This document shows, one piece after another, positions 52,523 to 57,961 of a DNA stretch of 64,000 nt. This DNA is from Desulfuromonas sp. AOP6. GTDB lineage: Bacteria; Desulfobacterota; Desulfuromonadia; Desulfuromonadales; SZUA-540. Made by a program: the position numbers and the translations under genes. Under the pieces are notes generated by a model. It was not told the origin of the DNA. It did no database searches and was given only the letters and a program-made list of their open reading frames with translations. Each line of letters begins with the position of its first letter. The stretch's first letter is position 1. The stretch spans positions 620,001-684,000 of the forward strand of contig NZ_AP022810.1 of NCBI RefSeq assembly GCF_009731355.2, written 5' to 3'.

Positions 52523-53515
52523 TTAATCAGCGGCGATCTGCAGCACGATTTTGCCGAAGTGGCGGTCTTCATCCATCATGCGGTGGGCTTCCACCACGTC
52601 ATCGATGGAGAAGGTCTTTTCGATGATGGGAACGATGCTGCGGTCGGCGAATTTGGGCAGCGCCCGGCGGGTGAATTCGGCCACGATTTCGCCTTTTTCC
52701 GAAACGGGGCGCGAACGCAGCACGCTGCCGATGATCTGCTGACGCTTGACCATCATGAGGGCGAGATTGAGTTCCGCCTTGATGCCGCTGATGACGCCGA
52801 TAATGACCAGGCGGCCCTTGTAGCCGAGGGAGTTCATGTTGGGGGCGAGGTACTTCGCGCCCACGTGATCGAGGATGACATCGACCCCCTTCTTGTTGGT
52901 GAACTCTTTGACCACTTCGGTGAAGTCGGGGGTCTGAGTGTAGTCGATGACCAGGTCGGCACCAAGGTCTTTCACCCGCTCCATCTTGCTGGGGTGGGCG
53001 GTGACGATGAGCTTGGCGTTGGGGGTCAGCGCCTTGGCCAGCTGCAGCGCCGCCGTGTTGACGCCACCGCCGCCGCCGTGCAGGATAGCGGTTTGGCCGT
53101 CCTGTAGATCGCCGATCATGAAGACGTTGAGAAAGGCGGTGATGTACGACTCGCACACGCAGGCCGCCTCGGCAAAACTCATGCTCTCGGGGATGGGCAT
53201 CAGGTGGTCGGCGTAGGCTACGGCGTATTCGGCGTAGCCACCGCCGCCCACCAGGCTCATGACCCGGTCGCCCGCTTTCCACTGGCTGACCTTGGGCCCC
53301 ACTTCAGCCACCACGCCGGCCACTTCCAGACCGAGAATCTCCGAATCACCGGGAGGGGGCGGATACTTGCCTTCACGCTGCACCAGATCGGGACGGTTGA
53401 TGGAGGTGGCCATCACCTTGATCAGAACCTGGTTTTCACCGGGCACCGGCCGCTCCGCCTCGCCCACGCGCAAAACTTCCACACCACCGAAACCGTCGAG
53501 CTGAACTGCTTTCAT
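52523..53515 (-). CDS. NAD(P)H:quinone oxidoreductase, zinc-independent MDR family (PIG3-like)
   Basis: A 330-residue medium-chain reductase. The GroES-like N-terminal domain has INRPDLVQREGKYPPPPG, typical of the PIG3/QOR branch, LGLEVAGVVAEVG and the Rossmann region DGQTAILHGGGGGVNTAALQLAKAL with LVIDY. Zinc-binding residues of alcohol dehydrogenases are absent. It probably reduces quinones or enones with NADPH. AAAGGAGG precedes ATG 53515. Confidence 0.9.
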   Translation of the reverse strand: MKAVQLDGFGGVEVLRVGEAERPVPGENQVLIKVMATSINRPDLVQREGKYPPPPGDSEILGLEVAGVVAEVGPKVSQWKAGDRVMSLVGGGGYAEYAVAYADHLMPIPESMSFAEAACVCESYITAFLNVFMIGDLQDGQTAILHGGGGGVNTAALQLAKALTPNAKLIVTAHPSKMERVKDLGADLVIDYTQTPDFTEVVKEFTNKKGVDVILDHVGAKYLAPNMNSLGYKGRLVIIGVISGIKAELNLALMMVKRQQIIGSVLRSRPVSEKGEIVAEFTRRALPKFADRSIVPIIEKTFSIDDVVEAHRMMDEDRHFGKIVLQIAAD

Positions 53516-53789
53516 AATCCCTGCCTCCTTTGGGAAAGATGTCTGTCGAAAAAAGAATAAAACAGCGTGTTGATTATAAGGAATCCCTGTGAGGTTGCAA
53601 CCCCAAATCCGGCGGGGAGATTTCTGAACGGCTTGCTGCCCCCTTTCCCCCGGTCCCGGCCCGTGGGCAATATCCCACCCCCAGCGGGATGGTCAAGTCT
53701 TCGCATTAAATCTATTGACTACAGACAATCCCTGGGAATAATAGGTCTATTCTTTTATTGTATTTTACTTATTGAGTCACATGATAAAT

Positions 53790-53885
53790 CCACCGAAAAG
53801 GTAAACCTCGGGTGACCGGGGGGCACAAAGCCATCGGTCCGACGCAGATGTTTAAAAGAGTCGGATGGCCGGGCTGTCGAAGTGG
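53790..53885 (+). ncRNA. GEMM-I (cyclic-di-GMP class I) riboswitch aptamer
   Basis: All hallmark parts of a GEMM-I aptamer are present in order. P1: CCACCGA (53790-53796) pairs with TCG (53877-53879) and GTGG (53882-53885). GGTAAACC (53800-53807) follows. P2: CCTCGG (53806-53811) and CCGGGG (53816-53821) cap a GTGA loop, a GNRA tetraloop. The conserved GCACAAAGCC spans 53823-53832. P3: GCCAT/ATGGC (53830-53834, 53865-53869) and CCGAC/GTCGG (53839-53843, 53860-53864) enclose an internal loop suited to a tetraloop receptor. The base matching Vc2 G20 is G (53800), the cyclic-di-GMP-type identity rather than the A seen in cGAMP-selective variants. Alignment was by eye. Confidence 0.85.
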
Positions 53886-53915
53886 CTGAAGATAAATTTC
53901 CTAACGGATTTATCA

Positions 53916-53947
53916 AGCCCGCCCTTTTTCGGATGCGGGCTTTTTTT
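53916..53947 (+). terminator. Riboswitch expression-platform terminator
   Basis: AGCCCGC (53916-53922) pairs with GCGGGCT (53935-53941), followed by seven T. A second hairpin, GATAAAT/ATTTATC (53891-53897, 53908-53914), precedes it. The aptamer 3' strand CCGGGCT (53869-53875) can instead pair with AGCCCG (53916-53921), which would prevent the terminator. This predicts that ligand binding frees the terminator (OFF switch), an inference from pairing only. Confidence 0.8.
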
Positions 53948-53988
53948 GTTCACATGACACCCTGGCCAAGATTCTCGCGAGGTGAAGG

Positions 53989-55674
53989 ATGACTAAGGCA
54001 CCACCGTCAATGCAAAACGAAGAAACAATCAAGATACAGTGCCCCGAATGTGGTCACAGCAAACGGCTCCCCGCCAAAGCCGTACCGGCCAAAGGGGCCG
54101 TGGCCACCTGCCCCAAATGTGCGGGCAGATTTCAGGTGCCGCCTCCCGGCGCCGGGAAGGAAGTGCCTGCTGTCGCCAGTCGTGTCGCTAGTGCCGCCAC
54201 GCAGGGGAGCGCTCGCCCTGACCCGGTTGACCCGCCGCCCGTGACCGCCAAGGTCAAGTTCCAAACCTTTGTCACCTACGATAATCGCTTCAAGGGCAAA
54301 GGAGAGGTGCGCATCGCGGACGGCTTCATTCAGATACAGGCGCGGCGAAGATGGATGGGGTTATTCTCAGGCAGAAAAACCGAACGCTACCCCCTTGCCG
54401 CCGTGCGTAATCTTTTCTGCAAAGGCAAGACCGTCCAGTTTGTCATCCCCCAAGGTAAGAGGGTGTGGCAGGCTTATCTGGTCTGCGCTGATCAAAAGAC
54501 GGCTCAGGCCCTTGCCGCCCGATTGCCCAAGACCGTAGACGGCAAATTCACCACCACACAACAGGCCAACAACGAATTGAAAGAGAGGATGTCGCAACTG
54601 CCGGCTGCAACGCCCGTTACCTGGGCCCTGCTGGCCCTCAATATTATGGCTTATCTGGCCATGGCCTGGACCACCAAGCAATGGCTGCAATTTGATGCCG
54701 CTTACCTGACGTCTGTCGGCGGCAACTACTCACCCCTTACCACCGATGGCCAGTGGTGGCGGATGCTGACCGCCACCTTCTTGCATGCCGGCCTGCTTCA
54801 CCTGGTCTTCAACATGCTTGCCCTCTACCACATTGGCCGCCTTGTCGAACGTCTGCACGGCCCCTGGGCTTATCTCTCTATTTACCTGCTGGCCGGCATA
54901 GCCGGATCGTGCGGCACCCTGCTTTTTTCTCCCCTGAATGTCGGTATCGGTGCCTCGGGCGCGGTCTTTGGCGTCATGGGGGCCATGGTGATCTTCTTTC
55001 AGATCGACCGCGACTTTCTCACATCCGGCGCCCGCAATAAAATTGCCACCACCTTTGCCATCTACGGCTTTTATGCCCTGATGAACGGCATCGGCAAAGC
55101 CGGAATCGACAACGCCGCCCATGTCGGCGGCGCCCTGACCGGCATAGCCCTGGCCTGGTTTATCGGCAAACCCTTGCGACTCAAGAAAGAAGACGGCGGC
55201 TGGTTGAGCCGACGAGCCCTGGCCGGTGTGGGGCTCGTCCTTCTCGGAGTTGGCGTCGCCTTAGCCGCGGCGCCGAAACGGGGCAGCGACTATAGGGTGG
55301 CCGCAAGCATCGTCGAACTGCAGCAAGAGCTGAGTGCCAAAGAAAAGATATTGGCGGACGAGGTTGTGAAAATGTCCGAAATGGCGGAGGACGTGGACTC
55401 TGCCAAAGTCACCGAAGTGGTAACGCTATGGCAAAACACCTACCAGGGACTGCCGGAACGGTTGGCCCAGCTTCAGCCTGAAAATGAAAGCCTCCAAAAG
55501 CGGCAAGAAGTGTTGCTTGCCTACATTCGTCTCAAGCAGGAAGGGGGCGAGCTGATGGCCGAAGCTTTTGCCAAAGAGGATAATACCCTTGCGAAGCAGT
55601 CGGTCGAGAAGCTGAAGGAAGCGAATGAATTGGCTTCTGGTTTGGCAAAGCCGATTCAGTGGAATGAGCGTTAA
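53989..55674 (+). CDS. Rhomboid-family intramembrane serine protease with N-terminal zinc ribbon
   Basis: A 561-residue protein with four parts. Residues 16-52 form a zinc ribbon (CPECGH and CPKCAG). Residues about 85-185 form a beta-rich domain (FQTFVTYDNRFKGKGEVRIADG). Residues about 205-435 are the rhomboid domain with TATFLHAGLLHLVFNMLALY, catalytic S323 in GASGAVFG and H378 in AAHVGG. The last 130 residues are a charged coiled-coil-like tail (VELQQELSAKEKILADEVVK). Ser and His are both kept, so it should be an active intramembrane protease. GAGGTGAAGG precedes the ATG. It is led by the GEMM riboswitch and terminator, so its expression should follow cyclic-di-GMP. Confidence 0.9.
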   Translation: MTKAPPSMQNEETIKIQCPECGHSKRLPAKAVPAKGAVATCPKCAGRFQVPPPGAGKEVPAVASRVASAATQGSARPDPVDPPPVTAKVKFQTFVTYDNRFKGKGEVRIADGFIQIQARRRWMGLFSGRKTERYPLAAVRNLFCKGKTVQFVIPQGKRVWQAYLVCADQKTAQALAARLPKTVDGKFTTTQQANNELKERMSQLPAATPVTWALLALNIMAYLAMAWTTKQWLQFDAAYLTSVGGNYSPLTTDGQWWRMLTATFLHAGLLHLVFNMLALYHIGRLVERLHGPWAYLSIYLLAGIAGSCGTLLFSPLNVGIGASGAVFGVMGAMVIFFQIDRDFLTSGARNKIATTFAIYGFYALMNGIGKAGIDNAAHVGGALTGIALAWFIGKPLRLKKEDGGWLSRRALAGVGLVLLGVGVALAAAPKRGSDYRVAASIVELQQELSAKEKILADEVVKMSEMAEDVDSAKVTEVVTLWQNTYQGLPERLAQLQPENESLQKRQEVLLAYIRLKQEGGELMAEAFAKEDNTLAKQSVEKLKEANELASGLAKPIQWNER

Positions 55675-55750
55675 GAGACTGAGGAATTGTCGAATTTAGA
55701 ATAAGAAAGCTCGCTTGGTGACAACTAAATTGAAGAAATGGGAGTTGGGG

Positions 55751-56326
55751 ATGTCGTCAATAAATGGGCAAAATATTGTTGATAGAAGTTCGGTTAATTT
55801 TGATGATGCAATTATTGTTATGAGGCCAAGTAAGGGTCATTATTTTTTAATACTAGTGATAACTGTAGTAGTAACAGCTTATGCCATGTTTGCAGATGTA
55901 ATCCCTGTTCTTATCACATTAGACTATTCATCTGTTTTTTCAGGATCAGAAAATAGAATTGGAAAACAAATATTCCATTTTTATCTTGGCTTGTTCTTAT
56001 GTGCTTACATACCAGCGTGGGCCCCAATTTTCAGAATAGGGAATGCCTACTTTTTTAACGATAAGTTAATTATAACACCATTTTTTTCAAAAAAAATTAA
56101 AAGTTACTATTATGAAAATATGCAAGTAACACAAGATAGGATGCTCCGTTTGAAAATAGATGAATTAAAAGTTGGTTCTGACTACAATATATTCAAAAAA
56201 ATTAAAAACCGATATTTTGATGGTGTTGTGTTTGGCTTGACAAAGAAAACAATAAATAATTACGAAATTGTCGAGGATGTATTGAGCTTACTTAAAAATA
56301 ATTCTGCAAAATACCTTGAGAAATAA
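55751..56326 (+). CDS. AT-rich orphan membrane protein
   Basis: A 191-residue protein I do not recognise. It has two clear hydrophobic helices (YFLILVITVVVTAYAMFADV and FYLGLFLCAYIPAWAPIF) followed by a basic, Lys/Tyr/Asn-rich cytosolic part (KKIKSYYYENMQVTQ, DYNIFKKIKNRYFDG) of the kind seen in small PH-like membrane proteins. The base composition is strikingly AT-rich (many AAA, ATA, TTA codons) compared with every neighbour, which suggests recent acquisition. ATG 55751 has GGGAG 6 bases upstream; a TTG at 55715 is the other start. It lies between the rhomboid gene and a RAYT element. Confidence 0.68.
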   Translation: MSSINGQNIVDRSSVNFDDAIIVMRPSKGHYFLILVITVVVTAYAMFADVIPVLITLDYSSVFSGSENRIGKQIFHFYLGLFLCAYIPAWAPIFRIGNAYFFNDKLIITPFFSKKIKSYYYENMQVTQDRMLRLKIDELKVGSDYNIFKKIKNRYFDGVVFGLTKKTINNYEIVEDVLSLLKNNSAKYLEK

Positions 56327-56586: not shown

Positions 56587-57252
56587 ATGGCAAGAATTGC
56601 ACGGGTCATAGCATCAGGCATCCCCCATCACATTACCCAACGGGGCAACCGGAGGATGCAAACCTTCTTCGGCGACGACGACTATCGGGCCTACCTAGAC
56701 CTGTTGGCTGAATGGTGCCGTAAGTGTTCGGTCGATATCTGGGCCTATTGTCTTATGCCGAATCATGTTCACCTGATTGCTGTTCCCGAAAGCGAAGAGG
56801 CGTTGCGCCGCGGCATCGGGGAGGCCCATCGTCGCTATAGCCGCATGATCAACTTTCGGAACAACTGGCGCGGGCACCTCTGGCAAGGCCGCTTTGCCTC
56901 CTTCCCTATGGATGAGAACTATCTTCTGGCTGCTGCCCGCTATGTGGAGAGAAACCCAGTCGCTGCCGGCTTGGTTGACGATGCTGGGGCCTGGCCGTGG
57001 AGCAGTGCTCAGGCGCATTTAGCTGCAACGGATGATGGATTGGTCACAGTGGCGCCACTTTTGGAGTTGGCCGGTGACTGGCGAACGTTTCTGGAGGATT
57101 CGTCTGATGAAGAACGGGTCAACGAGATAAAGAAGCATGAGCGCACCGGAAGACCCCTCGGATCAGAGGGATTTGTCGCCAGGCTGGAGACCGTGCTGGA
57201 TCGTACGCTTAAACCGTGCAAGCCAGGGCCAAAGGGGAAGGGAATTAAGTAA
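56587..57252 (+). CDS. REP-associated tyrosine transposase (RAYT, IS200/IS605-like TnpA_REP)
   Basis: A 221-residue single-strand-acting transposase-like protein of the Y1 family. The start ARIARVIASGIPHHITQRGNRR is typical of this class; the HUH-type metal motif is H60 and H62 in MPNHVHLIAVPE, and the nucleophile is Y119 in ARYVERNPVAAGLV. The basic C-terminus ends KPGPKGKGIK. All catalytic residues are intact. It is flanked by inverted copies of a short repeat, two left and six right, as expected for a REP/RAYT pair. The last codons lie within a segment that is duplicated in the downstream repeat array. Confidence 0.92.
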   Translation: MARIARVIASGIPHHITQRGNRRMQTFFGDDDYRAYLDLLAEWCRKCSVDIWAYCLMPNHVHLIAVPESEEALRRGIGEAHRRYSRMINFRNNWRGHLWQGRFASFPMDENYLLAAARYVERNPVAAGLVDDAGAWPWSSAQAHLAATDDGLVTVAPLLELAGDWRTFLEDSSDEERVNEIKKHERTGRPLGSEGFVARLETVLDRTLKPCKPGPKGKGIK

Positions 57253-57484
57253 GGTGTCCCCAGAATTGTTCGCAAAGGGGAAGGGAATTAAGTGAGGTGT
57301 CCCCGGAATTGTGCGGCAAAGGGGAAGGGAATTAAGTAAGGTGTCCCCAGAATTGTTGCACGTGCAAGCCAGGGCCAAAGGGGAAGGGAATTAAGTAAGG
57401 TGTCCCCGGAATTGCGGAGGGGAATTAAGTAAGGTGTCCCCAGAATTGTTGCAAGGGGAATTAAGTAAGGTGTCCCCAGAATTG
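57240..57484 (+). repeat. Array of six RAYT-associated repeats
   Basis: Six copies of a 29-base unit, GGGAATTAAGTAAGGTGTCC plus CC(A/G)GAATTG, start at 57240, 57283, 57327, 57386, 57420 and 57456. Spacing between copies is uneven (7 to 30 bases). GCAAGCCAGGGCCAAAGGGG, the last coding stretch of the transposase gene, recurs before the fourth copy, so the array grew partly by duplicating the gene end. No gene is present from 57253 to 57580; minus-strand open frames across the array are repeat translation only. Confidence 0.88.
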
Positions 57485-57580
57485 TTGCAGGACCTATTGT
57501 GTGGTGTAAAAGCAGGACAGCTTGCCCCTTGCCAGGAGTCGGCTTTTGTTCTTTCGGACAACAGAGGGTCTGATCAGGGG

Positions 57581-57961
57581 TCAACTGCCGGTAGTTTGAA
57601 GGGACTTCAGATATGTGGTCAGTTCGTCGATCTGGGCAGGGGAAAACCGCTCGCCAAAAGCGGGCATCCCGTTTGGACGGCCTTCGCGGATGCTCGTGCG
57701 CAGGGAGTCGGGGTCACCGCCGTAAATGAAGTCTGGTCCTTGCAGTGACGGCCCTTTGGAGGCCCACCCGCCCTTGCCTCGTTCGCCGTGGCAGGGGGAA
57801 CACCAAGTGGCAAACTGTTGCGCGGCCGTTTTTTCGACTCTTGCTTCAGGCGTAGAGGATTCCTGACAGCCCAGAAGCAGGAACAGGAAGAGGCCATAAC
57901 TCGCGGCACGCCACAGGCAAAGGCGGTGGTGGGAGAGGGTGTTTTTTGGATTCATGATCAC
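57581..57961 (-). CDS. Monoheme cytochrome c lipoprotein
   Basis: A precursor of 126 residues from GTG 57961 (TAGGAG 5 bases upstream), or 124 from ATG 57955. A lipoprotein signal ends FLFLLLGC, so the mature protein should be membrane-anchored. One heme site is present, WCSPCHGERGKGG, with a Met ligand in NGMPAFGERF and the closing helix IDELTTYLKSLQ. It belongs to the class I/cbb3-type c family and is probably periplasmic. It sits between the RAYT array and a decayed RAYT end, an accessory setting. Confidence 0.88.
   Translation of the reverse strand: MIMNPKNTLSHHRLCLWRAASYGLFLFLLLGCQESSTPEARVEKTAAQQFATWCSPCHGERGKGGWASKGPSLQGPDFIYGGDPDSLRTSIREGRPNGMPAFGERFSPAQIDELTTYLKSLQTTGS

Follow-up and report, generated by a model that had tools for sequence, protein, structure and literature searches.

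A GEMM-I-fold riboswitch with U at Vc2 position 92 lies before, and probably controls, a rhomboid protease gene

The RNA described here is closest to two kinds of riboswitch that share one fold: the c-di-GMP-I riboswitches (RF01051; for example Vc2 and Cd1), in which the standard ligand pocket has G, A, and C at Vc2 positions 20, 47, and 92, and the cGAMP riboswitches (GEMM-Ib; for example Geobacter pilM and pgcA), in which the known pocket is A20/C92. Rfam also holds the variants c-di-GMP-I-GGC (RF03167) and c-di-GMP-I-UAU (RF03168), whose names, to judge from the consensus letters, spell positions 20, 47, and 92, and the c-di-GMP family list in the available part of PMC12452182 names no G/A/U family. 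In the pilM riboswitch, the equivalent of C92 (C75) forms a Watson-Crick pair with the ligand, and in Cd1 the base-pairing role falls to C87 (PMC9262584; equating both with Vc2 C92 is a mapping of our own). Nucleotide 20 is described as a selectivity factor and no hard filter (PMC9262584), and an A20-to-G change converts a sensor of cGAMP to one of c-di-GMP (PMC6456294). G20 and C92 are described as less conserved than A47 (PMC9049102), c-di-AMP is bound by G20A/C92U Vc2 (PMC7288161 and PMC9049102), and crystal structures of C92U Vc2 are listed as 3MUR, 3UD3, and 3UD4 (PMC10671752). Since the C92 equivalents pair with the ligand, these data on C92U and G20A/C92U Vc2 suggest that position 92 helps to set base identity; by analogy with nucleotide 20, it too may be no hard filter. 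The 3UD3 and 3UD4 structures reportedly have G-A linear dinucleotides bound. As for the direction of control, the accessible text describes Cd1 as an OFF arrangement with a nonoverlapping terminator, from which pilM differs (PMC9262584), and the Geobacter cGAMP switches as ON switches (PMC9262584 and PMC6456294).

Within the window, by which we mean the whole 64-kb stretch of DNA that was analyzed, RF01051 is the sole Rfam family matched at gathering cut-offs (cmscan, Rfam 15), and the match covers the full-length model with an E-value of 1.2e-6 (Table 1). The first-pass annotation, which had proposed a GEMM-I riboswitch with a GNRA-capped P2 and a G at the Vc2 G20 position, is thus borne out by the covariance model and, for the loop (GUGA) and the G, by direct reading. 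Vc2 numbering was anchored on the RF01051 model alignment together with the naming of G20, C22-G45, C44-G83, A47, C92, and the G14-C93 pair in the available text of PMC3764141. The source genome, a single 3.27-Mb contig, has seven RF01051 matches, all above the cut-off, of which the window copy scores lowest, and the family is present in 50 of 58 genomes (the source genome and its relatives). The leader that holds the aptamer sits between a divergent zinc-type oxidoreductase gene and an open reading frame (ORF) of 561 aa that encodes the rhomboid protein. The promoter candidate upstream is weak because the scanned region has 15 promoter-like sites where 3.8 are expected. With Vc2 and Cd1 the aptamer shares the P1-P2-P3 fold, the GNRA loop, G20, A47, and C44-G83, and it differs from them in having U92 instead of C92 and a rhomboid protease gene as its target. 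We consider it highly probable that a GEMM-I-fold riboswitch lies before this gene and probably controls it. Our joint explanation, a GEMM-I-fold transcriptional OFF switch on a zinc-ribbon rhomboid gene with a cGAMP-preferring G20/A47/U92 pocket, we put at a probability of roughly 0.4.

Table 1. Coordinates of the riboswitch, its parts, and the flanking genes in the window
Feature	Positions	Strand	Basis
Divergent zinc-type oxidoreductase gene	52523..53515	-	
Sigma-70-like promoter candidate, TTGACT-16-AATAAT, upstream of aptamer	53715..53742	+	consensus match only, weak
GEMM-I (c-di-GMP-I, RF01051) aptamer	53790..53881	+	49.5 bits vs gathering 35
Possible P1, with two-A bulge	53790-53793/53882-53885 and 53794-53795/53878-53879		
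5' strand of aptamer, CCGAAAAGG; potential partner of terminator loop 53923-53932	53793..53801	+	folds, shuffles
Vc2 G20 position: G	53800	+	RF01051 alignment and direct reading
P2	53801-53826		
U22-A45, compensatory version of C22-G45	53802/53825		
GNRA tetraloop GUGA of P2	53812..53815	+	direct reading
Interhelical C44 and G83, both kept	53824 and 53868		
A47-A49 (A47 = 53827)	53827-53829		
C-C mismatch in drawn P3	53835/53870		
3' strand of aptamer, CGGGCU; potential partner of terminator 5' arm 53916-53921	53870..53875	+	not better than chance
Vc2 C92 position: U (T in DNA), altered pocket base	53877	+	gapless vs GGGYUGCCGAA of other aptamers
Small hairpin GAUAAAU..AUUUAUC just before terminator	53891..53914	+	folds
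Intrinsic terminator: 8-bp stem 53915-53922/53935-53942 and U-run	53915..53947	+	sequence and folds
Gene for 561-aa protein: zinc ribbon at N terminus, then middle region (predicted strands), rhomboid domain at residues 254-393, and helical C-terminal region	53989..55674	+	Pfam, alignment; secondary structure from low-confidence model

The most interesting feature of the aptamer is its U92 pocket, and the inference drawn about the ligand has to be corrected. Immediately 5' of C93, the cytosine of P1, stands a U where the consensus has C92, as can be seen in the gapless alignment of GGGCUGUCGAA in the window with the corresponding segment of other aptamers, which gives a 20/47/92 pocket of G/A/U that differs from the standard c-di-GMP-I pocket, from the cGAMP type, and from both Rfam variants. 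The first-pass annotation had reasoned from G20 to c-di-GMP; the G20 stands, but the inference is incomplete because the base replaced by U is the one that pairs with the ligand in Watson-Crick fashion. When 53700-54000 was scanned alone at lax thresholds, the best family by E-value was c-di-GMP-I-GGC, with which the aptamer shares G20, but its 48.6 bits fall below that family's gathering cut-off of 59, and it has A47 and U92 where the consensus has G47 and C92. It shares A47, U92, and a UGUC 3' end with c-di-GMP-I-UAU, but it does not reach the gathering cut-off of 65.9 and has G20, against a consensus of U20/A47/U92. A reading of U92 as an extension of P1, pairing with an A after the P1 guanine, was judged unlikely by eye, since C92 aptamers often have that A as well. 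In what is available of the literature on C92U riboswitches or c-di-GMP-I-UAU, we found no description of natural G20/U92 aptamers.

We therefore asked how the pocket is distributed in the class. A pattern with a base other than C at position 92 matched in 59 of 277 class genomes, and 14 matches were judged by eye to be GEMM aptamers (nine U92 and five G92), the remainder looking like chance, and a reversed-pattern control also matches; the same pattern with C at 92 matched in 89 of the 277. These patterns favor a GGYUGNCGA 3' end, so U92 rates are rough. The stretches retrieved for comparison were 11 from the non-C set and 80 others (74 from the C set, one non-C, and five other RF01051 matches of the same genus). 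The aptamer table had 99 rows, from which a false A/A row (L040) was removed for the tree and to which L114 was added by hand. Six rows with an unparsed 3' end were dropped: L001, L004, L220, L222, and one in L043 are all C92 by eye, with A20 in L004 and the L043 one, and the sixth, from L044, has the look of a chance match. The stretches L039, L041, L042, L045, and L219 gave no row, and L194, L206, and L223 were collapsed as identical. In all, 11 G20/U92 aptamers were found in 10 genomes: two in the source genome (G000) and one each in G001, G005, G142, G143, G146, G187, G188, G211, and G259. They are L007, L006 (source genome), L073 (same genus), L108-L114, and L218, and each scores above a GEMM-clan Rfam cut-off; L113, although G20/U92, is classed as c-di-GMP-I-UAU with 80.1 bits against the cut-off of 65.9. 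All 11 have G20 (10 as tabulated, plus L114, which has one inserted base) and none has A20, while the 83 tabulated C92 aptamers comprise 55 G20, 24 A20, and four C20, and the five tabulated G92 aptamers are all G20. The tie of U92 to G20 has a Fisher p of 0.029, computed without relatedness correction and weak alone. A U22-A45 pair was rejected as a mark of the U92 group, since it also occurs in 10 G20/C92 aptamers and C22-G45 is kept in three U92 ones.

On a FastTree of 99 aptamers with position 92 masked, built from short aptamers and without support values, the position-92 labels need four changes; 500 shuffles gave 15.5 on average and never fewer than 11. Closest to the window aptamer is L112 (77% identical), which comes from another family and precedes a gene for an exported glycine-rich protein. 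Because U92 clusters on the masked tree, it looks inherited rather than a stray mutation, and it seems to have been retained in aptamers that have diverged and that precede different genes. For 10 of the 11, the downstream gene was read from the ORFs (the L218 stretch is too short to include one), and these genes are of several unrelated kinds; besides the rhomboid gene of the window, they encode multihaem cytochromes (L006 and L073), M6-like peptidases (L109 and L110), transglutaminase-like exported proteins (L111 and L113), a histidine kinase (L114), and exported proteins (L108 and L112). The second U92 aptamer of the source genome, L006 (G000:C1:1793953-1794036), lies directly before its cytochrome gene without an obvious terminator, an arrangement that is perhaps a translational switch and has a counterpart in the genus (L073). 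Other pocket variants were seen on the way. The five G92 aptamers (L074 and L115-L118) are mutually similar, with L115, L116, and L118 preceding, by ORF reading, fibronectin-like exported proteins; C20/C92 aptamers occur in the source genome (L005, G000:C1:1137077-1137166, minus strand, by ORF reading before a sensor-like gene) and in G001 (L186), and further C20 aptamers are L183 and L215.

By analogy with known pockets, in which guanine is the partner of C92, the partner of U92 should be adenine. If G20 reads G and U92 reads A, the ligand would have one of each, which makes cGAMP a plausible ligand. The pocket would then prefer 3',3'-cGAMP, its guanine held by G20 and its adenine by U92, so that the ligand would lie the other way round from its position in the known A20/C92 cGAMP riboswitches. 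We rate such a preference in the window aptamer just short of an even chance. More tentatively, the G20/U92 aptamers may represent a further natural GEMM-I specificity class of reversed-pocket cGAMP sensors that evolved independently of the A20/C92 type, which would place the rhomboid under cGAMP control. There is a serious rival, possible at somewhat below even odds, in which c-di-GMP could be tolerated at U92 through a U-G wobble, with lower affinity, and an ordinary c-di-GMP sensor switches the rhomboid gene. This would fit the retention of G20, A47, C44-G83, and the GNRA loop and the fact that RF01051 is the sole clan family above its cut-off, but it sits less well with the role of the C92 equivalent as a Watson-Crick reader of the ligand in the available text of PMC9262584 and with the finding that U92 is kept in clustered aptamers and is not scattered.

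The enzymes encoded in the genome also bear on the ligand. The source genome has 25 GGDEF matches, and the GHxxG[D/S] motif is readable in 18; 17 have the ordinary aspartate, in keeping with a c-di-GMP sensor, and one has serine. In Hypr enzymes, as described in the accessible part of PMC6456294, serine replaces aspartate, and the serine place in this motif is our own mapping of the Hypr signature position. The protein with serine, a REC-GGDEF protein in which the GGDEF motif is present (L139, G000:C1:2218201-2218665), is thus a Hypr-type candidate, and in all nine other U92 genomes the top match also carries serine. Proteins similar to it occur in 195 of 224 class genomes, a count made by similarity in a set where the serine was not read; since such proteins are near universal in the class, their presence does not favor cGAMP, and we set it aside as nondiscriminating. 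The source genome resembles the cGAMP systems of Geobacter, which we take to belong to the same bacterial class, in having a Hypr-type candidate and three A20 (cGAMP-type) aptamers, L002, L003, and L004, which by ORF reading precede a sensor kinase, a small exported protein, and a lipoprotein, respectively.

The terminator that had been claimed between aptamer and gene is plain in the sequence and in the folds. It does not overlap the aptamer, and it is compatible with it, as is the Cd1 terminator in the text available (PMC9262584). A consensus terminator scan with a loop limit of 8 nt does not list it; its loop is 12 nt. Two segments of the aptamer can pair with it. The pairing proposed in the first-pass annotation, between the 3' strand and AGCCCG in the terminator 5' arm, holds as a complementarity (-15.0 kcal/mol) but is not better than chance, since 322 of 2,000 shuffles of this GC-rich strand are as good. 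A second pairing, absent from that annotation, joins the 5' strand with CCUUUUUCGG in the terminator loop (-11.5 kcal/mol), and only 12 of 2,000 shuffles are as good. In nine other leaders, with pairing segments picked by eye, the shuffles as good out of 2,000 for the 5' and 3' strands were, respectively, 35 and 741 (L001), 38 and 87 (L002), 1,089 and 175 (L003), 1,630 and 802 (L004), 792 and 66 (L108), 512 and 34 (L111), 164 and 1,049 (L112), 3 and 1,684 (L113), and 380 and 569 (L114). The 5'-strand pairing thus falls below 100 in three of the nine (L001, L002, and L113); in most leaders one strand beats most shuffles, but which one varies, and neither stands out in L004 and L114.

These pairings suggest how the leader might switch. 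Without ligand, the 5' and 3' strands of the aptamer would pair cotranscriptionally with the terminator loop and 5' arm, forming an antiterminator that leaves the gene on; a bound cyclic dinucleotide would hold both segments in the aptamer and free the terminator, so that transcription is predicted to end and the gene to be off, as in Cd1. In nascent transcripts ending at 53929, 53936, and 53940, the lowest-energy fold contains the antiterminator, and in the one ending at 53947 it contains the terminator. When the full leader is folded without ligand, the terminator is present in the structure of lowest energy (-56.4), whereas the antiterminator fold comes to -55.0 and the drawn aptamer plus terminator to -49.8; since the terminator is already in the free fold, OFF regulation would have to be kinetic. 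We lean slightly toward a transcriptional OFF switch, for which folding support is weak and between whose states the energies do not decide. That same free full-length fold is what an ON switch would use: without ligand, either the lowest-energy terminator fold or a helix of GGCCGGGCU with AGCCCGCCC followed by UUUUU (53867-53875/53916-53929) would terminate, and ligand would prevent this, which is the direction described for Geobacter cGAMP switches (PMC9262584 and PMC6456294). The alternative helix does end at a run of five U, but it contains a C-C mismatch and spans a loop of 40 nt, and because the canonical terminator is clear of the aptamer, whose own strands take part in the competing fold, OFF fits better; we regard the ON direction as rather unlikely.

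The gene under this putative OFF switch encodes a protein whose closest known counterparts are GlpG-type rhomboid proteases. It matches Rhomboid (PF01694) with 123 bits in an intact ORF, in agreement with the intact rhomboid first annotated, and Ser323 in GASG and His378 in NAAH, with H271 and N275 also present, line up with the GxSG and NAAH motifs of 2nr9, a GlpG homologue, so that the protease looks catalytic by sequence. Among solved structures, those most similar in sequence are inactive rhomboids with alanine at the Ser323 equivalent. It differs from GlpG-type proteases in its added N-terminal zinc ribbon, middle region, and helical C-terminal region. The zinc ribbon had been part of the first description; its four ordered cysteines (18, 21, 41, and 44) are in place, but its Pfam score of 26.7 is below the cut-off of 30.3. 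The AlphaFold model (mean pLDDT 51.9) was too poor for a fold search. Just after the gene lies an AT-rich ORF (55715-56326) for a membrane-like protein with a subthreshold Pfam match only, and farther on an IS200-like (Y1) transposase gene (56587-57252) adjoins a block of short repeats (57288-57584; repeated ATILGTPYLIP in one frame), together resembling a REP-associated transposase and its repeats.

How widespread is the pairing of riboswitch and rhomboid? One full-length relative turned up, L008, which is 54% identical with invariant catalytic and ribbon residues and alone shares the complete domain order; L068 carries the same ORF. No GEMM aptamer is present in the available DNA around L008, and 29 other rhomboid loci of relatives, those among many more rhomboid matches for which DNA was retrieved (20 + 9), gave no Rfam match at gathering within about 1.5 kb on each side where the contig allowed. 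When the N-terminal part served as query against 136, 277, and 395 genomes (overlapping sets, the last from a larger group), no other full-length relative appeared, and the 395-genome search gave one weak match, in G390. We therefore find no support for a recurrent rhomboid-GEMM regulon: since the pairing was seen in one genome only, it looks private to that genome, a lineage-specific arrangement within the genomes searched. The first-pass annotation knew of no described link between c-di-GMP riboswitches and rhomboid proteases, a link that would tie the amount of second messenger to proteolysis within the membrane, and the open PMC full text, judged by titles and abstract openings, likewise reports none.

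The lack of an aptamer at L008 would also be expected if the window aptamer were decaying, with U92 and the P3 mismatch marking lost ligand binding and a constitutive terminator or leader remaining. Its score is the lowest among the seven copies in the genome, and the C-C mismatch in P3 points the same way. We nevertheless find decay quite improbable, as U22-A45 is compensatory, U92 is common to the 77% identical L112 of another family and before another gene, and the 5'-strand antiterminator pairing exceeds shuffles.

Should the proposed switch be real, it would offer a genetic handle on the timing of rhomboid protease production in an environmental bacterium of this class. If U92 merely proves to be tolerated, the one-base rule for assigning ligands is still corrected. 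If instead U92 redirects the pocket, GEMM-I aptamers that have been called c-di-GMP sensors by G20 would need rereading at position 92, and if it redirects it to cGAMP, one RNA fold would reach the same specificity via either of two base-reading positions.
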